The notes below the pieces were generated by a model. That model worked only from the letters and a program-made list of their open reading frames with translations, was not told where the DNA came from and did no database searches. The position numbers were made by a program, and so were the translations under genes. A stretch of 64,000 nt of DNA from Halomonas ventosae (GTDB lineage: Bacteria; Pseudomonadota; Gammaproteobacteria; Pseudomonadales; Halomonadaceae): positions 62,001-126,000 of the forward strand of contig NZ_SNWH01000003.1 in the NCBI RefSeq assembly GCF_004361885.1, in the 5' to 3' direction. This document shows, in pieces, positions 1,961-17,690 of this stretch; within the stretch, counting starts at the first letter, position 1; the number at the start of each line of letters is the position of its first letter.

Positions 1961-4900
1961 TCATGGGCTCGGCGGGGTGCCCGGCAGGCTGAAACTGTAG
2001 ACCAGGTCAACCGCCTGGGACGCTCCCGAGATCGCCTCGAGATAGAGACTGCGCCACAGTTGGTAGCGCAGGGTCAATTCGGCGATCGGTGAGAAGACGC
2101 CCACCCCGTAACCGACATTCAGCCGATCGGTGAGGTTGCCGCTCACCATGACCTGGCTCTCCTCACCGGCCCCGGCGGTCTCGATGTTCAGGTCGGAAAT
2201 GCCGAAGGCCTCGCCGACGGCCCCCACGGCGCCGCCGGTCTGGCCCAGGGTGAGACCGATCAGTGCCGAGGTCAGCGCCCCGTCGCTGCTACCGCTGCTG
2301 TCCGGGCCGCGACCACGCAACAGGTAGGAGAGCGCACTCGCCTCGTCCATGGCCGGTTCGGAGAAGATCTCAAGGCTGGGGTTGTCCGCGGAACCGGTGA
2401 CCCGCAGGCCGGCAATCACCTCATCCTGGGTGATGCGCGGATTGCGGATCGCCTCGAAGTCGAGCAGCGGCTGCCCCGGCGGGCCACTGAAGAAGATGAT
2501 GCCCTCCCGGATTAGCAGATCCTGGCCGAAGGCGCGGAAGCGGCCATCAACCAGGCTGACGTCACCGAACAGCTGGACCGGGCCGTCCTGCTGGCGCACC
2601 TCAAGGTTGCCTGAAAGCTCCGACTCCAGGCCATAGGCCTTCAGTTGCATGTCAGGCCCCAGCGACAGGGTGATGCGGATATCGGTGGCCATGCCGGCCT
2701 GGGCCATCGCCTCGGCGGTAGAAGTACCGGGCTGGTCGGCTGCCGCGGCCTTGGTCTCGGCGGTCTGGCGATCCTCGGCCTCGGTGATGATCACCTCGTC
2801 TGGACTCGGAGCCTCGGCCGAGGCGGGGACCTCGCCCACCTTGAGCCGGGCCCAGGGAATCTCGACCGTACCGCGGACCTGGAGCCGTTGGGGTGTGGCG
2901 CGAATGCGCAGATTCGGGGCCAGGCGCAGCCGGCCGAATTCCGGCAATATCGCCAGCAAGGGGTCGTCGACGGCCTGCAGGTCGATGGCCGCCTGCCAAC
3001 TGCCCGAGGTAGGCCAGCGGGCATCGCCGGCAATTTTCAGGCGACCCTGGTCAGCGGCCAGGAAGCCGTCGATGTTGGCACGCTCACCGGAGAGCTCGAC
3101 GATCAGCTCTCCATCGCGAACCTCCAGCGGCAGGTTCAGGCCACTGGCCTGCAACCCCGTCAGGGCGAGGCGGCCATCCAGCCAGGGCGCCTGGCGATTG
3201 CCGGTGATGCGGATATCGCCATCAAGCCCCCCGGCCAGTGACTCCAGGCCCACGGCCAGCGGCCGATAGGGGGCCAGGCGCAGGTCGACGAGGCGCAGCC
3301 GGCCATCGAGCCGGCCCTCCTCCAGCGGTTTATCGATGGCCAGTGACAGGCTTACCTCGCCGCTTTCCGCCAGCCCCAGCGTCAAGTCGAGGTCGGCGCG
3401 CGCCTGGCTGGCAGCGACGCTGAGACCCAGGGAGGTGCCGGGCACCGACCAGGGCCGGCCGTAGGCATCCTCGCCGGTGATCTCGGCACGACTGTCGAGG
3501 TCGGCGGCCAGCTGCCAGCGCTCCCCGCCGCCCGACCAGCCGGCCTCGAGGGTGCCGGCGGTCTCGCCACGGATGCGCCACCCTGGCGGCAAGGCGGCAT
3601 TGGCAAGGTCCATGGGCAGGGCACGGATCGCCAGCACTGCCCGGCCAGTTTGGGCCGAGGCCGTCAGCGGCTCGGTCAGGCACAGCTCGCCGCCCTGGCG
3701 GCGAGTCAGGCAGAAGGGGGCCACCCGCGCCGAGCCGGCGGCGAGGTCGGCATCGACGCTCAACGCCTCGGCGAGGCGGATATCACCGAACTCGCTGTCG
3801 ACATCGAGCGGTGTCAGGCGTGCGCGATAGCGTTGCCGCTCGCGGTCGAGCCCGCCCTCCAGGGCCAGGGATAGCCGCGACAGCGGCAGCGTTTCACCAC
3901 CCTTGGCGGCCAGGCGCAGGCGGTGCGCCGAGAGGCGGCCGTCGAGGTCCAGGGTCAGGCTATCGAGACGCTGTCCGCCGGCCGCGAGCTCGTTGACGGC
4001 CAGGGCCAGGGCCAGCTCGGGGTCCTCCAGGCCGGCGACCTGGGCGCTCAGATCGAGCGCCTTCACGGTATTGTCGGCGAAGGCCAGCGAGCGGCCGGTC
4101 AGCGTGAGGTCGAGCTCCGGTGCCTCCAGGCTGCCGGCGGTGGTGAAACGCCCGCTCAGGGTCCCGCCGAGGCCGGGGTAGAGGGTGTCCAGTGCGGGCA
4201 TGTCCAGCTCGCCGACCAGGTCCAGCGCCTCGCGGCTCACCCGCCCGGCGGCGCTGACCCGGTTGCGGCCCTGGCGGAAATCCAGGGTCTGGATATCCCA
4301 GCGCATCTCGCTGTTTCCGGAGAGAACGGCCTCGAGGTTCAGCGGCCGCTCGTCCAGCACCCCCTGGATATCCAGCCCCGGCACCTCGAGTCGCCAGCCG
4401 GCGTCATCCTGGGTGAAGGCCAGCCGGGCGCCGCCCCCCAGGCGGCCATCGAGCCCTTCGACGAAGCGGCCGGGATCGAAGTTGTCAAGCGACAGCGAGG
4501 CCTCGACGTCGAGAGCGTCGCGCCAGGCGGCCTGGCCACGGCTGACCAGCACGGCGCCCTGCTGGTGGAGCGTCAGCGGTGACCAGCGAAAATGTTGCAG
4601 ATCCCCGCTCCCCTTGACCAGCAGCTCGGTGGACGGCAGCTCCGGCCCCTGGGCCCTGAGCGACAACTGGCTGCGATAGTCGACCAGGCTGCCCTCCAGC
4701 TGCAGCGCGAGGTCCGAGACCTGCCATGGCGCAGCGCTCGCCTGGCTTGTCGAAGGCTCATCCGTGGCCGGCGATCCGGCCGTCGCCTCGTTCGCCGAGG
4801 TGGTCTCGGCCCCGGGCAGCGGCCACTGCAGCGCTTCGCTGCGCAGCGAGGCGGTGAACGGCAGGGTCGGGTCGAGGGCGTCGAGCCGGGCCACCAGGTG

Positions 4901-5992
4901 GCTGTCGACAGGCCCCCGGGTGCGCAGGTCGACCTCGAGCTTGGCCAGGCTGCCGGCCAGCGCGAGCTCGATACGCTCACCCGCCAGCGCCGGCATCCGC
5001 TCGGGCAGGTAGAGATCGGCGGCCAGCCGGGCCTTGAGGGGATAGTCGTTGTGCAGCGCCACGCGCGCCATCAGCTCGGCATCCGCATCGGCGGTGGCCA
5101 CCGCCAGGGTATCGATCTTGACGTCTTGACCCTGGGCGCTCAAGCGCAGCAGCAACTTCTTCACGCGGTACTCGACCGACCCGGTGATCGCCGCGTCCTC
5201 GATGGTGAGTTGCGGGACCTCCACGGCCATCGGCAGGGTCACCTCGGGGAGTTCGCGACGCGGCTGTTCGGCGAGAGGCAGGTCGGCGAGCCCCTCCAGT
5301 TCGGCGGCGGCCGCGGCGGGCAGCGCAGCATGCAAGGCGATGGCCGCATCGATGGCCGGCGCCACGAGCCGTCGACCCTGCGGTTCGGCCTCGTTTAGGG
5401 CCAGGCGGGTACCCGCCGAGAGTGGCAGGCTCAGGCGCAGTCCGGCCAGTCGCGTCGGCAGTAGGGTCAGGGTACTCTGCTCGGCGCGCAGCCCCGTGGT
5501 AAAGGAGTGCCAGGCCAGCTGGGTGCCATCGGCAAGTTGCAGGTTCACATCGACCAGCGACAGCTCGCGCAACGCCAGCGGGAACGGCAGCCGAATCTGC
5601 GCGAGGGGCGTACCGGCAGGCGGTTGTGGCGCGACGTCCGGTTCGGCGGGCGTATCGGCCAGGCGGATATCGGCGCCCGCCACGGCCAGTTGGTCCAGGC
5701 ACAGCCTGCCCTGCAGCAGGCACTGCTCGGACCACGCCAGTTCGAGCCGCGCCACGGCGATGTGCGCCGGGCCGGCCTGGAGGCGTAGATCATGCAACAC
5801 CAGGTGATCCAGCGGGGCGCCTTGCACGGCACCCACTTCATATAACCCGCGCTTGGCACCCTGTTCGAGCAGCACGCCGGTTCCCCAGGGAGAGAGCGCC
5901 AGACCCAGCAGCAGCAGCACCAGGCCTAGCAGCCACAGGGGAAGGATGATACATAAGCGGGCCAGAGCCCAGGTCAATGCACGGGTTCTCAA
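1961..5992 (-). CDS. tamB: Translocation and assembly module inner-membrane protein TamB
   Basis: A 1343-residue AsmA/DUF490-type protein, slightly longer than E. coli TamB (1259). An N-terminal hydrophobic anchor ([19 protein letters not shown]) is followed by a very long beta-rich periplasmic region. The conserved C-terminal TamB domain contains [19 protein letters not shown] and ends with a beta-rich segment ([18 protein letters not shown]). TamB spans the periplasm and works with the Omp85 protein TamA in outer-membrane protein insertion and lipid transport. The most upstream start in this frame is a TTG at 5992; there is no ATG near the membrane anchor. tamA ends 11 bases upstream, so the two form an operon. 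Confidence 0.93.
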
Positions 5993-6003
5993 GGCGATGG
6001 CTC

Positions 6004-7854
6004 TCAGAATTCCGGACCGATGGAAAAGTGGATGCGAAAGCTATCCTGCGAATCGAAGGGATGGGCGACATCGAGGCGAATCGGACCAACCGGAGATATC
6101 CAGCGCACCCCCAGACCGGCACCGGTCTTGAGGCCGTTCGAGTCCCAGTTGCTGAAGGCATTGCCGGTATCGATGAAGCTTGCGGCCCACCACTGGCCGG
6201 TGACGCGACGCTGGGCTTCCAGGCTGGCGGTCAGCAGCTGTTCGCCACCGATCAGGCGGCCCTCGTCGTCCTCGGGCGCGAGCGTCTCGTAGTCATAGCC
6301 GCGCACGCTGCGATCGCCGCCGGCAAAGAAGCGCAGCGAGGGCGGGACATCGGCGAAGTCATCGGTGATGATGCTGCCGACACCGACCCGTCCGACGAAG
6401 CGGTTGTCGTCGCCGATCATGCGGATCCATTCGCTGTCGCCGGTGAGGCGCAGGAATTCGGCGGCCGAGCCCCACCAGTCGCTGGAGTACTCCACGGCCA
6501 GGCGCTGGCGATCGCCCCAGGTGGGAAAGGTGGGGTTGCGGGTGCGGATCCGCGACCAGCTGATACCGGGATAGAGCAGCAGCACCTGATTGGAGTTGCC
6601 GGCCTGGGTAAAATCCTCGTAGGTACCGCGCAGATAGAGGGACTGCTGCCAGTCATTGTCGAACGTCCAGCGACGGGCCGCTTCTACCGTGCTCTCTAGG
6701 GTCCGGGTATCCTCGTTGTCCTTGTTGCGAAGCCCATACAGGAAGCGATAGCTGTCACGTAACGGGTTCGCCAGCGGCAGGGTATAGCTCCCGCTGAGCT
6801 GCTGCTCCGGCCCCGAGAGATAGAGATCATGATTCAGGCTATGGCCGAAACGGTTGATCCAGGGCTGATTCCAGGAGAAACGCAAGCGGGGCCCGACGTC
6901 GGTGGCATAGCCTACCCCCACTTCAAACTGGTGACGATTGGCGGGGGTTACCACCACGTCGACCGGTACCTCGGGAACGCCCGGCTGCTTCAGGCTGGCG
7001 GCCGTTACCAGCGCCTCGGCGGCGATGCGCGGCCCAGCGGCGACGGGCTCCACGCCCTCGACGTCCAGCGACTGCCACCAGCCGGCGGTGTCCGGGAGCG
7101 CCAGTCGGGCCACCTCCCGGTTGAGACGCGGTCGCACGCTCACCGAGGCGAACCATCCCGTCTGACCCAGGCGCTGGTTGAAGCTGGCCACCTTGCTCGC
7201 CAGGTAGGGATCCCCGGGGGAGAAAGGTGCCAGGGATTGAAGCCGGTCGGTCTCGATGTGATGCCCCTGGAAGGTCACGTCACCGAAGTGATAGCGCCGA
7301 CCGCTGTCCAGGGCCAGATACAGCCGGGCGCTGTGGGCGTAGGGCCGCACCTCCATGCGGCGATCGGTGAAACGCCAGTTGAAGTAGCCGCGTTCCAGGG
7401 CGAGGTTCGCCAGTCGACTGCGCAGGCTGTCGAAGGGGGCATGGCGAAGGCGATCTCCCTTTTCCAGGGGGAAGGCTTCGAGCGCCTGATTGAAGGGGGG
7501 ATCGTCGGCGGCATCACCGGTCACGGAGAGCGACAGGACCTCGATACGCACCGGCTCTCCCGGTGCGATCGAGAGTGTCACGCGGCTCGGTGACTCAGGG
7601 TCGTCGAAGCGCAGCTCGATCCGCGGCGAATAGTAGCCATAAACGCGCAACGCCTCGCTGCTGCGACGCAATACCTCGCTTTCCAGGCGAGCGGGGCTGT
7701 ATTGCGGGGCATCCAGCCCCTCGAGGTAGAGACGGACATTCTCCGCCAGCGGGTCTTCGACGCCCTCGATGGTAGCCTCGATGGCCTGTGCTGCGGATGA
7801 CAGGCCCAGAAAGAATGCCGCCAGCCCCAGGCGGGTGAATACGCGGTTATCCAT
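6004..7854 (-). CDS. tamA: Translocation and assembly module outer-membrane protein TamA
   Basis: A 616-residue Omp85-family protein. The signal peptide (residues ~1-25, ending SSAAQA) precedes POTRA domains and a C-terminal 16-strand barrel. The Omp85 signature appears as VRGYDYETL near residue 510, and the chain ends in a phenylalanine (FSIGPEF), as expected for a Bam-inserted barrel. The start ATG at 7854 has AGGAAG upstream. It pairs with the adjacent tamB to form the TAM complex, which bridges the inner and outer membranes. Length and architecture match E. coli TamA (577 residues). Confidence 0.93.
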   Translation of the reverse strand: MDNRVFTRLGLAAFFLGLSSAAQAIEATIEGVEDPLAENVRLYLEGLDAPQYSPARLESEVLRRSSEALRVYGYYSPRIELRFDDPESPSRVTLSIAPGEPVRIEVLSLSVTGDAADDPPFNQALEAFPLEKGDRLRHAPFDSLRSRLANLALERGYFNWRFTDRRMEVRPYAHSARLYLALDSGRRYHFGDVTFQGHHIETDRLQSLAPFSPGDPYLASKVASFNQRLGQTGWFASVSVRPRLNREVARLALPDTAGWWQSLDVEGVEPVAAGPRIAAEALVTAASLKQPGVPEVPVDVVVTPANRHQFEVGVGYATDVGPRLRFSWNQPWINRFGHSLNHDLYLSGPEQQLSGSYTLPLANPLRDSYRFLYGLRNKDNEDTRTLESTVEAARRWTFDNDWQQSLYLRGTYEDFTQAGNSNQVLLLYPGISWSRIRTRNPTFPTWGDRQRLAVEYSSDWWGSAAEFLRLTGDSEWIRMIGDDNRFVGRVGVGSIITDDFADVPPSLRFFAGGDRSVRGYDYETLAPEDDEGRLIGGEQLLTASLEAQRRVTGQWWAASFIDTGNAFSNWDSNGLKTGAGLGVRWISPVGPIRLDVAHPFDSQDSFRIHFSIGPEF

Positions 7855-8886: not shown

Positions 8887-9465
8887 ATGACATTTGAACT
8901 GCCCGCATTGCCGTACGAGAAGAACGCGCTGGAACCGTACATCTCCGCCGAGATCCTCGAGTATCATTATGGCAAGCACCATCAGGCCTACGTGAACAAG
9001 CTCAACGAGCTCATCGCCGGCAGCGACGATGCCCACAAGTCCCTCGAGGAGATCATCCAGTCCTCCTCGGGCGGGCTGTTCAACCAGGCGGCCCAGGTGT
9101 GGAACCATACCTTCTACTGGCACTGCCTGTCCCCCCGCGGGGGCGGTGAGCCGAGTGGCGTGCTGGCCGACGCCATCGCGGCCAGGTTCGGTGACGTCGC
9201 TACCTTCAAAGCAACCTTCAACGCCCAGGCTGCCGGTAACTTCGGCTCCGGCTGGACCTGGCTGATCAAGACCGACGATGGCGGCGTCGACATCCGCAAC
9301 ACCCGCAATGCCGACACCCCTATCGCCCATGGCCAGACCCCGCTGCTGACCATCGATGTCTGGGAACACGCTTACTACCTCGACTATCGCCATGCCCGTC
9401 CGACGTACCTCGAGAAGGTGTGGAACGTGGTCAACTGGGACTTCGTCGCCCAGAACTTCGGCTGA
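8887..9465 (+). CDS. sodB: Superoxide dismutase [Fe]
   Basis: A 192-residue cytoplasmic enzyme that dismutates superoxide. Metal ligands are visible at His27 (EYHYGKHHQ), His74 (VWNHTFYW), Asp157 and His161 (DVWEHAYYLDY). Length, the FELPALPY start and the AAGNFGSGWTWL segment are those of the iron type rather than MnSOD. The ATG follows AAGGAG by 8 bases. The gene is monocistronic: the gene upstream is divergent and the dehydrogenase-like gene downstream is convergent, 37 bases from its stop. No obvious terminator hairpin was seen in that gap. Confidence 0.95.
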   Translation: MTFELPALPYEKNALEPYISAEILEYHYGKHHQAYVNKLNELIAGSDDAHKSLEEIIQSSSGGLFNQAAQVWNHTFYWHCLSPRGGGEPSGVLADAIAARFGDVATFKATFNAQAAGNFGSGWTWLIKTDDGGVDIRNTRNADTPIAHGQTPLLTIDVWEHAYYLDYRHARPTYLEKVWNVVNWDFVAQNFG

Positions 9466-9502: not shown

Positions 9503-10819
9503 TCAGTCGCCGCCTTGCCGGATTCCAGGCCAGGGGTCGGCGCGTCGTCCGATCCCTCGGTAGTGCATGCCACAGGCGGCCACATGGGCCGGGTCGTAGA
9601 TGTTGCGCCCGTCGAGGATCAGCCGCTCGCTAAGCCGCTCTGCCAGGCGCGGCCAGTGGGGATTCCAGTAGACCTTCCACTCGGTCACCAGCATCAGCGC
9701 ATCAACTCCCTCGCAGGCCTCCAGGGGGTCACCCTGGAATACCTCGAGCAGCGGGTGCTCACCGACTTCGGCGAGTACCGCGGGGATCGCCGCCGGATCA
9801 TGCAGGCGAACCCGCACGCCCTGGGCCCAGAGCGCACGCAGCAAGGTGAGCACCGGCGCCTGATCGATGCGGGCAGTGCCGGGCTTGAAGGCCGCCCCCC
9901 AGATCGCCACGCAGCGGCCCTCCAGGCGACCATGCAGATGCGCCCACAACTTGCGAAACAGCGTCTCCTTCTTGTGCTCGTTGATGTCGAGCACCTGATC
10001 GAGCAGCGCCGAGTGGCGCCCGCTCGCCGACTGGACGTCGGCCAGGCGCATCAGGTCGCGGGAGAAGTTGGGGCCGCCGAAGCCGCAGCCGGGATAGAGG
10101 TACTCGTAGCCGATGCGCGAGTCGGCACCCATGCCCTGGCGGACGTATTCCACGTCGACCCCCAGGCTGTCGGCCAGCCCGGCGATATCGTTCATATAGC
10201 TGATACGCGTGGCGAGCATGCCGTTGATGGCTAGCTTGGTCAGCTCCGCGGCGCGCCGCGGCATGCGCTGGAACACTTCGCGGCGGCGATTGAAGGCGCG
10301 CAGCAGCTCGCGCACCTGGCGCTCCGCGCCGTCGTCATCGCAGCCCAGCAACCAGCGGGAGGGCCGTGTAAAGGTCTCCCAGGCGCGCCCCTCCTCGAGC
10401 AGGTCGGCCAGGGCCACCGCCTGGCAGCCGTCGAGGCGTGACTCCAGCTGCTCGGTCTCGCCCACCGGGAAGGTGGAGTTGTTGACCAGCACCGCCCCCG
10501 GGCAGAGCCCGGCCATCAGGCGCTCGACGCTGTCGGCCGCGTCCTGGCGCTGGTCCGGGGAGACGGCGAGCCAGAAGACGTCGAAGGGCTCGCCGCCGAC
10601 GGCGTCCCCCTCGTCGGCCACCAGGCGCAGTCTGCCCTGGGCCATCCCTTCCTCGAGGCGTCGCATCAGCTCCGGTTCGCTGGTCAGCCAGCCGCTGGCG
10701 GAGAGCGTGGACCAGTCAGCCGAGACATGGGGCAGCCAGGTCACCCGGTGGCCCACCCAGGAGAGCGCCGCTGCGGCGGTGGCGGCGGCCAGTTCGCTGC
10801 CGTGGATCAGTACCCGCAT
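9503..10819 (-). CDS. UDP-glucose/GDP-mannose dehydrogenase-like protein with degenerate active site
   Basis: The 438-residue protein keeps the full three-domain layout of UDP-glucose 6-dehydrogenases: STFPVG, the AELTKLAINGMLATRISYMND helix with the catalytic Lys195 and Asn199, GADSRIG, and the third-domain FKPGTARIDQAP. Two key sites are altered. The nucleotide-binding GxGxxG aligns as GSELAA (Gly7 kept, the other two lost), and the catalytic-Cys motif GGSCFPKD reads GGPNFSRD, with Asn251 in place of Cys. It may be an inactive or repurposed paralogue, or may use a different chemistry. Its start lies 4 bases after the galU stop, so it is co-transcribed with the gene that makes UDP-glucose. 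Confidence 0.8.
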   Translation of the reverse strand: MRVLIHGSELAAATAAAALSWVGHRVTWLPHVSADWSTLSASGWLTSEPELMRRLEEGMAQGRLRLVADEGDAVGGEPFDVFWLAVSPDQRQDAADSVERLMAGLCPGAVLVNNSTFPVGETEQLESRLDGCQAVALADLLEEGRAWETFTRPSRWLLGCDDDGAERQVRELLRAFNRRREVFQRMPRRAAELTKLAINGMLATRISYMNDIAGLADSLGVDVEYVRQGMGADSRIGYEYLYPGCGFGGPNFSRDLMRLADVQSASGRHSALLDQVLDINEHKKETLFRKLWAHLHGRLEGRCVAIWGAAFKPGTARIDQAPVLTLLRALWAQGVRVRLHDPAAIPAVLAEVGEHPLLEVFQGDPLEACEGVDALMLVTEWKVYWNPHWPRLAERLSERLILDGRNIYDPAHVAACGMHYRGIGRRADPWPGIRQGGD

Positions 10820-10823
10820 GGGT

Positions 10824-11714
10824 TCACTCCTGTACCGCGTAGCGCGTCAGCAGCTCACGGAACCCCTGGCCGTAGCGTGGATGACGACGCCCATAGGCGA
10901 GAATCGCCTCCAGGTAGCCCAGCTGGTGGCCGCAGTCGTAGGTCTTGCCGCGCATCCGCCAGGCATCCACGCCCTCCTCGCGGCGCAGGGTCTCGATGGC
11001 ATCAGTGAGCTGGATCTCGTTGCCGGCCCCGGGCGGGGTATCGGCGAGCAGCGGGAAGATCCGCCCCGGCAGCACGTAGCGGCCGATTACCGCCAGATTG
11101 GAAGGCGCCTCGTCGATGGGCGGCTTCTCCACCACTCTTGCAATGGCCCGCGACTCGCCGGGTGCGGGAAGCTCCCCACCGGTGTCGACTATGCCGTATT
11201 TATCGACCCTGTCATGGGGTACCTCCTCGACCATCAGCTGGCTGTGATGGCTAGCCTCGAAGCTGGCGATCATGCCGGCCAGGTCGTTGATCGCGAGGCC
11301 TTCGTCGTCAACCAGCACATCGGGCAGCAGTACCGCGAAGGGCTCGTCATCGCCCACTACCGGGCGCGCGCAGAGCACGGCGTGGCCCAGGCCCAGCGGC
11401 TCGGGCTGGCGCACGCTGATGATGCTGACATCGGCGGGCACGATGGAGCGCAGCTGCTCGAGCAGTTCCGTCTTGCCCTTGGCCTGCAGGCTCGCCTCGA
11501 GCTCGAAGTGCTTGTCGAAATGGTTCTCGATGGCGCTCTTGGTGCCATGGGTCACCAGCACGATGTCGCGAATGCCGGCGGCCACGGCCTCCTGGACCAC
11601 GTACTGGATCACCGGCCGGTCGACGATGGTGATCATCTCCTTGGGAATGGCCTTGGAGGCCGGGAGACAGCGTGTGCCGAACCCCGCCACGGGAAGAACA
11701 GCCTTGTTGAGCAT
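10824..11714 (-). CDS. galU: UTP--glucose-1-phosphate uridylyltransferase GalU
   Basis: The enzyme makes UDP-glucose from UTP and glucose-1-phosphate for envelope polysaccharides. The 296-residue protein begins MLNKAVLPVAGFGTRCLPASK, the nucleotidyltransferase signature, with KAIPKEM following. Further motifs are LVTHGTKSAIENHFD, DVLVDDEG, a VEKP motif and GNEIQLTDAI. The ATG at 11714 is chosen by homology over an upstream in-frame extension. It lies divergent to ubiG. The dehydrogenase-like gene follows after 4 bases, a pairing that in other genera makes UDP-glucuronate, although here the partner looks degenerate. Confidence 0.95.
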   Translation of the reverse strand: MLNKAVLPVAGFGTRCLPASKAIPKEMITIVDRPVIQYVVQEAVAAGIRDIVLVTHGTKSAIENHFDKHFELEASLQAKGKTELLEQLRSIVPADVSIISVRQPEPLGLGHAVLCARPVVGDDEPFAVLLPDVLVDDEGLAINDLAGMIASFEASHHSQLMVEEVPHDRVDKYGIVDTGGELPAPGESRAIARVVEKPPIDEAPSNLAVIGRYVLPGRIFPLLADTPPGAGNEIQLTDAIETLRREEGVDAWRMRGKTYDCGHQLGYLEAILAYGRRHPRYGQGFRELLTRYAVQE

Positions 11715-14057: not shown

Positions 14058-14840
14058 TCAGTTGCCTGCCTGGCGCAGGAAGTCGTCGGCCAGCCCGGCG
14101 GCGGTGCTGTCGGGGTGCTCCTCGCGCACGCGCTCGAGCAGTGCCCGGCTCTTGTCGGGATGTCCGCGTCGTGCCTCGATCAGCCCCAGCTTGTAGAGAG
14201 CGTCGGGCACCTTGCGGCTCTCGGGAAAGTCCTCCAGCACCCGCCGGAAGGCGGCATCGGCGGCATCCAGCTCACCCTCGGCCGAGTAGAGCTCGCCGAG
14301 CCAGTAGTGGGCGTTGGCTGTCAGTCGGCTCTCGGGGTACTCGCTCACGAAGGCCTCAAAGGCACTAATCGCCTCGCCGAACTGGCGCGCCTGAACGTGC
14401 GAGAAGGCCGCCTGATAGGCCGACTGGGCGGCGGGATCATCGGCGTTCGGTGAAGGGGCCTCGACGACCTGGCGGGCGCTCTCCTCGTCCACGAGCGGGG
14501 CGGCCTGGTCGATCTCGCTGCCGGCTGCCATCAGACGGTCCTCGAGGTCCAGGTATTGCTGGCGGGTCTGGCGGCGCAGCTGCTCTAGCTGATGGCGAAG
14601 CTCCTCCAGCTGACCGCGCAGCTGGCGGAGCTCCTCCTGATGTTGCTGAACCTGGTTGAACAGCACCAGGCTGCCGCCGGCCTCCTCGCGGGTAACGGTC
14701 TGGTCATAGAAGCCCCCAGAGCCGGAGCGTCCGGTCAGGTCCTCGATCACCGGCTGCTGTGCCAGGAGGGGCCCCGCTACGGTCAGCGCAAGCAGCAAGG
14801 CGGCCGCACTGCACAGTCTGCTCTTCAGACCCTGTCTCAT
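14058..14840 (-). CDS. cpoB: Cell division coordinator CpoB (YbgF)
   Basis: Last gene of the tol-pal cluster. The 260-residue periplasmic protein has a signal peptide ending LLAQ, an N-terminal trimerising coiled coil (VQQHQEELRQLRGQLEELRH), and a C-terminal TPR domain of three to four repeats (AYQAAFSHVQARQFGEAISA, ANAHYWLGELY, PDALYKLGLIEA). CpoB links Tol-driven outer-membrane constriction with PBP1b-dependent septal wall synthesis. ATG 14840 is preferred to ATG 14846 because GAGGGAG is directly abutted by the latter and properly spaced from the former. Pal ends about 30 bases upstream. Confidence 0.93.
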   Translation of the reverse strand: MRQGLKSRLCSAAALLLALTVAGPLLAQQPVIEDLTGRSGSGGFYDQTVTREEAGGSLVLFNQVQQHQEELRQLRGQLEELRHQLEQLRRQTRQQYLDLEDRLMAAGSEIDQAAPLVDEESARQVVEAPSPNADDPAAQSAYQAAFSHVQARQFGEAISAFEAFVSEYPESRLTANAHYWLGELYSAEGELDAADAAFRRVLEDFPESRKVPDALYKLGLIEARRGHPDKSRALLERVREEHPDSTAAGLADDFLRQAGN

Positions 14841-14869
14841 CGTCATCTCCCTCGTCGTGTCGGCCCGGT

Positions 14870-15415
14870 TCAGTAGGCGAAGACCACCCGACGGTTCTGG
14901 GCGTAGGCTTGCTCGTTCTGGCCACGTGCCACGGGTCTTTCCTCACCGTAGCTGACCACCTCGACCTGTGAGGGCGACACGCCCTGGACGTTGAGGTAGC
15001 GCTCGACGGCGCCGGCGCGACGCTCACCCAGTGCCAGGTTGTACTCGCGGGTGCCACGCTCGTCGGTGTGCCCCTGCAACACCACGCTGGTATTGGGGTT
15101 GGCCCGTAGGAAGCGGGCATGGGCGGTCAGCATCGGCTCGAACTCGCTGCGGATGACATCGCTGTCGTACTCGAAGTAGAGGGTACGGACCTGAGGAATG
15201 CGACTGTCGGCATCGGCCATCTGGCCGGCGCGGCCGTCGCTGACGCTACCGACGCCGCGACCCTCGGCGCCGCTGGTGGCGTCAGCGCCGCGATCGCTGC
15301 CGCCGGCGATGCCCGTCAGGTCGCCGGCCTGGCCGCCTCCCGTGCTGGAACAGCCGGCCACGAAGGCCAGGGACAGGACGAGGGCCAGAGGCCTGGCATA
15401 GCGCGTGAGCTGCAT
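14870..15415 (-). CDS. pal: Peptidoglycan-associated lipoprotein Pal
   Basis: A 181-residue outer-membrane lipoprotein with lipobox LAFVAGC (Cys at about residue 20) and a Gly/Ser/Ala-rich linker. The C-terminal OmpA-like domain binds meso-DAP peptidoglycan (FEYDSDVIRSEFEPML, LQGHTDERGTREYNLALGERRA, NRRVVF). The ATG at 15415 follows AAGGAG by about 8 bases. Pal is the cell-wall anchor of the Tol-Pal machine and the binding partner of TolB, encoded 23 bases upstream. Confidence 0.96.
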   Translation of the reverse strand: MQLTRYARPLALVLSLAFVAGCSSTGGGQAGDLTGIAGGSDRGADATSGAEGRGVGSVSDGRAGQMADADSRIPQVRTLYFEYDSDVIRSEFEPMLTAHARFLRANPNTSVVLQGHTDERGTREYNLALGERRAGAVERYLNVQGVSPSQVEVVSYGEERPVARGQNEQAYAQNRRVVFAY

Positions 15416-15438
15416 CGTGGAACTCCTTGTGGAATATC

Positions 15439-16728
15439 TCAGTTCAGAAAGGGCGACCACGCCGGTTCGCGGACATCACCCTGTGCCGCCGGCAGCCGGA
15501 AGGAGGCGCGACCATCGGCAGAGACCCCACCCAGCACGCCGTTGCCGCCCTGCTGGGTGGCGAAGATTACCATGGTGCCATTGGGCGCGACACTGGGCGA
15601 TTCGACTTGCCCCATGTCGGAAAGCACCACCAGTCGACCGCTCTCCAGGTCCTGGCGGGCCAGCTGGAAGCCGCCGTTGCCGCGGTGGATCAGGAAGATG
15701 GTCTCGCCATCTGGCGCAAAACGCGCCCGGGCATTGTAGTTACCGGTGAAGGTGAGGCGCTGCTCCTCGCCGCTGGCCAGGTCGAGGCGGTAGATCTGCG
15801 GTCCGCCGCTACGATCCGAGGTGAACAGCAGGCTGCGACCATCTGGTGACCAGGCGGGCTCGGTGTCGATGCTCGGGTTGCGGGTCACACGTTGAATATC
15901 CCGCGAGGCGATGTCCATCACATAGATCTCGGGCTGGCCATCCTTGGAGAGCGCCATCGCCAGACGGCGGCCATCCGGCGACCAGGCCGGGGCGCTGTTA
16001 AGCCCCTCGAAGGCGGTGGCACGCACACGTCGGCCGGAGGCAACCTCCTGGATATAGATCGCCGGGCGCTCGGTCTCGAAGGAGACATACGCCAGCTTGC
16101 CACCATCCGGCGACCAGGCCGGCGACATGATCGGCTCGTCGGACGCCAGGATCTGTTGGCTGTTGCGACCGTCGGCATCGGCGACATGGAGGGCGTAGTG
16201 GGTATCGTCGCCGATCCCGCTGGAGGTCACATAAGCGATGCGGGTCGAGAAGGCTCCGCGGATATCGGTGATCTCCTCAAAGATCTGATCGCTGAGGTAG
16301 TGCGCGGCGTCACGCAGCTCCTGGCGACTGGCCGTCACGGTCTCGCCGAGCAGTCGATGCTCGCCAGTGACATCCATCAGCTCGTAGCGAATACTGATCT
16401 CTTCCCCTTCACGGCTGATGCGTCCTGCCACCAGGTAGCGAACGTCCAGGGCGCGCCAGTCTCCGTAGCGGACCTTCTCGCTCGAGGCGGGGCGCGCGAA
16501 CATGGCGCCACGTTCCAGCGGCTCGAAGTAGCCGCTACGCTGCAGGTCATCGGAGACGATCTGGGCGATATCCTGGGGCAGGTCATCGCCGTCGGCAAAG
16601 GGCACGACGGCGATAGGCGTGGCACGGTCATTGCCGCGGGTGATCTCGATGGTCAAGTCGGCGGCCTGCGCCAGGCTGGTGAATAGCATCAGCAGGGCGG
16701 CCAGCCAGGTGGTCTTCAGGACGTTCAT
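15439..16728 (-). CDS. tolB: Tol-Pal system periplasmic protein TolB
   Basis: A 429-residue protein with signal peptide (ending LAQA), an N-terminal anticodon-like domain ([20 protein letters not shown]) and a six-bladed beta-propeller made of repeated PAWSPDGxxLAY/LLF units. TolB cycles between TolA and Pal during outer-membrane constriction. Its start overlaps the tolA stop (TGATG at 16728), implying translational coupling. Length equals that of E. coli TolB. Confidence 0.96.
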
Positions 16729-17690
16729 CAGCGGATATCCCCCGGTCGAAATCGCAGGTTAAATTGACGGTAGTCGCGCTGCACCGAGATCGGCAACTGG
16801 CGCAGTTCGGCGAAGGGTGCGGCGGACTCCACGGCCTGGATCGCTGAGCGGTCGAAGGCGCTATCGCCACTACTCTGACTCAGCGTAGCCGCCAACAGCT
16901 CTCCTGAGGGGCCGAGTTTTACCGATATCTCGGCACTGGCCCCCGCAGGCACGTTGGGTGGGATCACCCAGGCCTGCTCGACCGCCCGGCGGACCAGGGT
17001 GATGAAGCTGTTGGCCGCCTCGCTGGCACGACGGGCCTCTGCCTCGGCCTGGCGCTGGGCTTCTGCCTCAGCTTGACGTTGGCGTTGAGCTTCTGCCTCG
17101 GCCTGGCGCTGGGCTTCTGCTTCTGCCTGGCGCTGGGCTTCTGCCTCGGCCTGGCGCTGGGCTTCTGCTTCTGCCTGGCGCTGGGCTTCTGCCTCGGCCT
17201 GACGTTGGCGTTGGGCTTCCGCCTGGCGTTGGGCCTCTGCCTCGATCTGACGCTGACGCTGAGCTTCTGCCTCGGCCTGGCGACGTCGCTCGGCCTCCGC
17301 TTCGGCCTGTTTGGCGCGGCGGGCGGCCTCTTCCTCGGCGGCCCGCCGCGCCTCCTCCCGCGTCTCGGCATCGGCCTGACGCTGACGTTCGGCCTCAGCG
17401 GCTTGGCGGGTGGCCTCAGCGGCCTGGCGGGTGGCCTCTTGCTCGGCACTGGCCTTGGCCGCCTCCTCGGCCTGGCGGGCTAGCGCTTGCGCCCGGGCCT
17501 GTTTAGCACGCTGGGCCTGGTCAGTGGTGGCCTCGGTACTGACCAGGGTGGCCTGGACGATCGTGGCGCTCGGCGGCTCGATCTCTCGCTGGGGAAAATG
17601 CATCATGCTGGCGACCAGGATCGCCAGGTGCAGAGCGATGGCGAGCACCAGCGGCAGGCCATAGCCCACGCGTCGGTCATGTCTGGCCAT
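16728..17690 (-). CDS. tolA: Tol-Pal system inner-membrane protein TolA
   Basis: A 320-residue protein with the usual three domains: an N-terminal transmembrane helix ([17 protein letters not shown]), a long Ala/Glu/Gln/Arg alpha-helical rod (about residues 60-220) that includes near-identical AEAEAQRQ octads, and a C-terminal TonB-like domain ([42 protein letters not shown]). TolA transmits proton-motive force from TolQR to TolB-Pal. The ATG has GAGGAG close upstream. The rod length will vary with slippage in the repeats. Confidence 0.95.
17050..17280 (-). repeat. In-frame tandem repeat in tolA encoding AEAEAQRQ units
   Basis: The DNA alternates near-identical blocks of gcctcggcctggcgctggg and cttctgcttctgcctggcg type, giving a 24-base unit that encodes eight residues, with a few shorter variants. 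It lies entirely within the TolA rod. The opposite strand also stays open here because of the repeat and should not be taken as a gene. Confidence 0.8.

Follow-up and report, generated by a model that had tools for sequence, protein, structure and literature searches.

The gene directly behind galU in this part of the Halomonas ventosae genome belongs to a clade of cysteine-less UDP-glucose dehydrogenase homologues, for which the name pUgd is coined here, and its product is very probably not a UDP-glucose dehydrogenase. Dehydrogenase loss is well supported by sequence comparison: judged by alignment, the nucleophilic thiol is gone along with most residues that bind NAD, while pUgd retains its fold, central dimer domain and UDP-sugar contacts. 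Because the same losses recur in many bacteria, the probable function of pUgd is to sense UDP-glucose, not to oxidise it, and the explanation that we infer and favour, at a probability of roughly 0.6, is a catalytically dead, UDP-glucose-responsive regulator of the UDP-glucose-forming module.

The gene, its altered motifs and its fold

The sequence-only reading had placed the gene at 9503-10819 of the window, i.e. the whole 64,000-nucleotide stretch that was analysed, directly behind galU; coordinates and neighbour were right, and the strand needs correction, as the reading frame lies on the minus strand, where it starts 4 bp past the galU stop. The features referred to below are as follows.

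9503..10819, minus strand: pUgd, UDP-glucose 6-dehydrogenase homologue without catalytic Cys and without NAD loop, 438 aa
9602..9613, minus strand: DGRN, residues 403-406, with Arg405 (human Arg442), a UDP contact that is kept
9944..9958, minus strand: FRKLW, residues 288-292, clade-specific motif including Trp292
10055..10078, minus strand: GGPNFSRD, residues 248-255, replacing GGSCFPKD
10067-10069, minus strand: codon of Asn251, at the catalytic Cys position
10784..10801, minus strand: GSELAA, residues 7-12, at the dinucleotide-binding GxGxxG site (GTGYVG in the canonical copy)
10824..11714, minus strand: galU, UTP-glucose-1-phosphate uridylyltransferase, with 296 aa when counted from the Met in MLNKAV

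This galU is the sole TIGR01099 match above cut-off in the whole genome. A canonical ugd, which the sequence-only reading had proposed to look for, is present elsewhere (L001, G000:C1:390162), and comparison with it confirmed both altered motifs, GGPNFSRD against GGSCFPKD and GSELAA against GTGYVG; the ribose-binding Asp of the canonical copy is also replaced, by Pro30. The loop YLYPGCGFGGxxF aligns gap-free to FIYPGCGYGGSCF, and no alignment seen places a Cys at the catalytic column. Lys, Asn, Thr and Asp each stand in their column in this protein, so that the earlier statement of a catalytic Lys and Asn in place (Lys195 and Asn199 in those columns) is correct here; it does not extend to the clade, where only 79 of 176 distinct members have the Asn. 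Human Arg260, Lys339 and Arg442 correspond by alignment to R235, K312 and R405. Cys245 in PGCGFGG was considered as a substitute nucleophile and rejected: canonical enzymes have it too, and it is not kept across the clade, many relatives carrying A, V, T or W there.

In Pfam searches the central and UDP-binding domains scored above cut-off (92.2 and 75 bits, respectively) and the NAD domain PF03721 under it (19.3 versus 27 bits). The NDP-sugar dehydrogenase model TIGR03026 was passed narrowly (195 versus 189.8 bits; 455.1 for the canonical copy), with relatives at 230.5, 192.2 and 191.4 and one, L103, below cut-off at 184; the dehydrogenase names of such genes presumably stem from this narrow pass. 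The full-length family architecture noted earlier was substantiated by an AlphaFold2 model (pLDDT 92.0, pTM 0.85), which has the three-domain UGDH fold and whose residues 1-430 superpose on solved UGDH structures (3gg2_D, Z 45.2, rmsd 2.0 over 412 residues; 2y0c_B, Z 44.9, rmsd 2.1 over 424 residues). The VIA-align matches listed comprised nucleotide-sugar dehydrogenases and, far lower, 3-hydroxyisobutyrate/6-phosphogluconate-type dehydrogenases, and nothing else.

By eye, a SodB-like gene on the plus strand (8887-9465) converges on pUgd, and an ordinary-looking TamB/TamA-like pair (1961-7854) and tol-pal-like cluster (14058-17690) flank the region.

Residues, range and selection across the clade

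Among 285 aligned rows, which include duplicates and other nucleotide-sugar dehydrogenases, 84 bear the catalytic Cys, none of them with Trp292, and 201 lack it, 198 of these with Trp292. The three exceptions are rows of a second Cys-less variant, GGSFFPHD/GGSFFPND (L120, L221 of G608 and L220 of G592), which keeps GxNYxG, has no Trp292 and sits among canonical Ugds, a separate event. The 198 rows collapse to 176 distinct pUgd members, for which the absence of Cys and the presence of Trp292 in all follow from the selection of the set; at the Trp292 column, 83 distinct Cys-bearing rows have V, I, T, S, L, A, Q, E and others. As to whether orthologues share Asn251, they do so in 107 of the 176 members; the other residues at this column are S (27 members), H (13), G (12), T (8), A (6), Q (1) and V (1), never Cys.

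The NAD residues, Lys279, Arg346, the ribose Asp and the Tyr of GxGYVG among them, have disappeared from most members (human residue numbers throughout were assigned by motif, not by structural alignment). The second and third Gly of GxGxxG are kept in 2 and 5 of 176 members and the Tyr in none (gaps in 4 in each case), Asp at the ribose position in 13, Lys279 in 4 and Arg346 in 2. At catalytic columns the clade is mixed, with Thr131 in 129/176, Asn224 in 79/176 and Asp280 in 133/176. The residues that persist are Lys220 (170/176), Arg260 (176/176), and Lys339 (174/176) and Arg442 (168/176), the latter two being UDP-sugar contacts, together with Phe288 (176/176), Arg289 (170/176), Glu281 (168/176), an acid at position 161 (161/176; D 152, E 9) and Glu165 (154/176). 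Passages of PMC3184952 describe the roles of Cys276, Asp280, Lys220, Thr131 and Arg260 in human UGDH, including that Arg260 touches glucose across the dimer and that residues 260-280 may sense UDP-glucose occupancy in the human enzyme. Within pUgd, conservation is highest in the central dimer domain and lowest in the N domain (mean pairwise identity: N 0.31, central 0.56, C 0.49; canonical rows: 0.56, 0.68 and 0.52), a pattern indicating, at the level of sequence, that the NAD domain is relaxed and the UDP domain is not.

Within Halomonadaceae, 256 of 275 genomes had a match at E < 1e-110 (hand count from the table), broken copies in G043, G111 and G251 included. Nine of the other 19 genomes gave weaker matches (G134, G135, G138, G156-G161), and the three read (L056-L058) are all Cys-less; four had partial or broken copies (G082, G139, G222, G266), and six a canonical-level or weaker match or none (G005, G109, G116, G117, G264, G274). 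The frame-disrupted copies (L053/L066 of G111, L054 of G222, L045 of G251, L064 of G266, L048 of G043) lie in assemblies of one or two contigs and are possibly sequencing errors. The fetched loci of the family, 74 rows with some genomes counted twice, had N 53, S 17, A 3, T 1 and no Cys at the catalytic column.

Wider searches covered the order (390 genomes) and named relatives (the best 80 of at least 591). Among the matches listed, Cys-less relatives were found in Alcanivorax, Alloalcanivorax, Marinobacterium, Nitrincola, Amphritea, Neptunomonas, Acinetobacter and other Moraxellaceae, and in single MAGs labelled Methylococcaceae, Pseudomonas and gammaproteobacterium. Other Moraxellaceae genera have strongly diverged Cys-less forms, with YLxAGWGFGG (L224-L228). 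In Acinetobacter, 146 of 149 species genomes, a sample drawn from a larger group, matched at E < 1e-137; no pUgd match was found in the other three of the 149, G676 (65% complete), G687 and G688 (both 99% complete). Of these 146 genomes, 46 were read at the catalytic column, and no Cys was found (N in 38 and H in 1 of 39 genomes, and a further 7 also without Cys).

In a maximum-likelihood tree of 105 rows, all 62 Cys-less clade rows, none with the catalytic Cys, fell on one branch with an SH-aLRT of 99; the tree was built with the loop and Cys columns removed, by a quick search without bootstraps, and contains some long branches. By this phylogeny the pUgd clade has one origin. A loss confined to one genus was rejected, the Cys-less members of this one clade lying in Halomonadaceae, Alcanivoracaceae, relatives of Marinobacterium and Nitrincola, and Moraxellaceae. 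Across 45 pairs from 10 loci of the genus, dN/dS of pUgd had a median of 0.100 (maximum 0.184), the same median as that of galU (0.100, maximum 0.138), which signifies strong purifying selection at the sequence level; chance, an assembly error and a decaying pseudogene were rejected on this dN/dS of 0.10 and on the matches in 256/275 family genomes. These comparative data support the earlier suggestion of a conserved pseudoenzyme in the UDP-glucose branch, over a far wider range than the single sequence had indicated.

Gene neighbourhood and the Acinetobacter K locus

Among 161 distinct pUgd loci with at least 1 kb available on both sides, 125 had galU and 83 had pgi within 1.5 kb and in the same orientation, and 156 had either; at Cys-bearing loci the counts were 0/68 for galU and 1/68 for pgi, a contrast that is only descriptive, because related loci are counted and the Cys-bearing set, which includes other nucleotide-sugar dehydrogenases, is non-random. 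In the named records the order is galU-pUgd in Halomonadaceae, with pgi absent from the retrieved flanks of 15 loci, galU-pUgd-pgi-galE in Acinetobacter, with pgm nearby in most, galU-pUgd-pgi-pgm in Alcanivoracaceae, galU-pgi-pUgd in Nitrincola, Neptunomonas and two Marinobacterium, pgi-pUgd in another two Marinobacterium, and galU-pgi-pUgd-pgm in Amphritea. Inheritance of pUgd is mostly beside galU and/or pgi. The genetic linkage expected of a GalU-associated regulator is observed; an effect on GalU is putative.

Neither gene was nearby at five loci, four of Halomonadaceae and one of a MAG (L173, L077, L081, L150, L152). The genomes of L077 (G208), L081 (G240), L150 and L152 each have one galU elsewhere, which in G240 is about 545 kb away from a persisting pUgd. 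As pUgd survives without an adjacent galU and pgi is sometimes the direct neighbour, GalU need not be the partner. In L152 (10001-11293) and L150, pUgd sits between a ubiG-like gene and tamA/tamB-like genes.

In ten chosen Acinetobacter regions of 18-19 kb, galU directly precedes pUgd in all ten; pgi behind pUgd and pgm further on were found in nine, the tenth (L306) being masked there, and galE lies between pgi and pgm in eight of the nine, missing in L307. Six of the ten regions have a 555-aa ORF, lactate permease-like by eye, behind pgm; two others have a 571-aa ORF ahead of the same 250-aa ORF. The A. baumannii K locus map, in the part of PMC3628348 that shows it, has lldP at that place. 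The identity of the A. baumannii K-locus 'ugd' with pUgd rests on this literature map and on gene order in other Acinetobacter genomes. The title of Kasimova 2018 credits Ugd2, and that paper may have commented before on the Ugd common to all K loci.

In the table of PMC9676051, Acinetobacter ugd is listed as making UDP-D-GlcpA; passages of the literature divide K-locus ugd into two homology groups (97.9% and 2.1%), place ugd2-ugd5, for D-GlcA, in 24 KL, and give D-GlcpA as a component of K20 (PMC10715181). A universal 'ugd' without UDP-glucuronate synthesis may explain the extra ugd2-ugd5 in glucuronate capsules of A. baumannii. According to passages of the respective papers, BAL062 has galU-ugd-gpi-gne1 with ugd annotated tuaD (PMC11494974), a ugd frameshift and a ugd knockout in a KL34 strain lowered phage sensitivity (PMC13340115), and phage-resistant strains carry IS insertions in pgm, gpi or ugd (PMC10904470). 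These phenotypes fit a capsule-supply role and may be polar on gpi, the passages reporting no complementation; the KL34 capsule type may itself contain GlcA. The passages of PMC6333632, PMC10320297, PMC9241936, PMC7200062 and PMC8617651 held nothing decisive on the role of pUgd, and searches of the openly licensed literature found no paper linking UDP-glucose dehydrogenase with pseudoenzyme, nor one joining nucleotide sugar dehydrogenase, Halomonas and galU.

Candidate roles and known systems

In the favoured mechanism, pUgd would bind UDP-glucose without oxidising it, as the kept residues suggest, and would produce no UDP-glucuronate. The UDP-glucose level would be relayed through the dimer-spanning 260-280 loop and the new conserved Phe/Trp face, by which pUgd might contact GalU or Pgi; the target would be the UDP-glucose-making enzymes, most likely GalU, and the outcome a set supply of UDP-glucose for capsule, LPS or exopolysaccharide. 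Against this stand the 5/161 loci with neither neighbour, the absence of the gene from two 99%-complete Acinetobacter genomes, and the intact Lys, Asn, Thr and Asp columns of the present protein.

The sequence-only reading had also offered a dehydrogenase with altered chemistry, that is, an enzyme that binds UDP-glucose and, lacking the Cys, catalyses just one oxidation, an epimerisation or some other reaction. The near-constant Lys220, the acid at position 161 and Glu165 would suit such an enzyme, and according to passages of PMC3184952 UGDH with a mutated Cys remains capable of partial reactions; however, the NAD residues are mostly lost, the second Gly of GxGxxG being another residue in 170/176 members, no single residue stands in for the Cys, the Thr, Asn and Asp columns likewise vary inside the clade, and the N domain is the least conserved, all of which makes this explanation unlikely. 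A purely structural use of the UDP-sugar pocket, in a scaffold for a Pgi-Pgm-GalU metabolon, would agree with the galU-pUgd-pgi and galU-pgi-pUgd orders in several families and with the conserved Phe288/Trp292, but leaves the near-invariant pocket residues unexplained and meets no pgi in the retrieved flanks of the 15 named Halomonadaceae loci; we regard it as improbable.

A prozyme, meaning a catalytically inactive subunit that joins canonical Ugd in hetero-oligomers and modulates it, could be read from the strongly conserved dimer domain and from the canonical copy in this genome, yet pUgd is the only PF00984 gene in G030 and G137 (Halomonadaceae) and in G521 (Acinetobacter), three of 14 genomes picked for a single earlier match, the other 11, all Acinetobacter, having a second PF00984 gene. 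In addition, 65 of 142 good-quality Acinetobacter genomes with a match show no second match to the clade profile, which is sensitive to E. coli-type Ugd (about 1e-34 to 1e-40) and still more so to the other canonical type. As pUgd persists in genomes without another Ugd, a partnership with canonical Ugd was rejected as its general role, and such a subunit is very unlikely overall.

A gene listed in Acinetobacter capsule typing as a UDP-glucuronate producer, and labelled a dehydrogenase by models in marine and halophilic bacteria, is apparently incapable of that reaction, and capsule predictions, metabolic models and target lists that use pUgd as a UDP-glucuronate source would be wrong. pUgd would be an ancient example, of single origin, of an enzyme that has probably become a sugar-nucleotide sensor. 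We hold it possible, though with some doubt, that an unrecognised family of UDP-glucose sensors exists across several gammaproteobacterial families, derived from a dehydrogenase through loss of NAD and thiol chemistry and gain of a Phe/Trp contact face, in which the A. baumannii K-locus 'ugd' controls capsule precursor flux and makes no UDP-glucuronate, hence ugd2-ugd5.

Among known systems, the UDP-glucose 6-dehydrogenases (BceC, UgdG, the P. gingivalis enzyme and human UGDH) share with pUgd the fold, the three domains and the UDP-sugar contacts, whereas pUgd is without the catalytic Cys, GxGxxG, the ribose acid and the Tyr of GxGYVG, and its N domain falls below the Pfam cut-off. GalF, a GalU homologue said to modulate GalU and titled 'GalU regulator GalF' in NCBIfam, would be a parallel only if the inference made here holds, both then being homologues of sugar-nucleotide enzymes that act on the formation of UDP-glucose; the ancestry of pUgd, however, lies in a dehydrogenase and not in GalU. 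GlmR/YvcK, a UDP-GlcNAc sensor acting on GlmS, and the UDP-glucose effectors UgtP/OpgH resemble the proposed pUgd in that they sense a UDP-sugar and thereby affect synthesis or growth, but the proteins are unrelated. The Acinetobacter K-locus 'ugd' (galU-ugd-gpi-gne1-pgm) has the same placement as pUgd in the nine unmasked regions, after galU and followed by pgi and then pgm; the literature credits it with UDP-D-GlcpA synthesis (table of PMC9676051), whereas the sequences compared here are without the residues needed.
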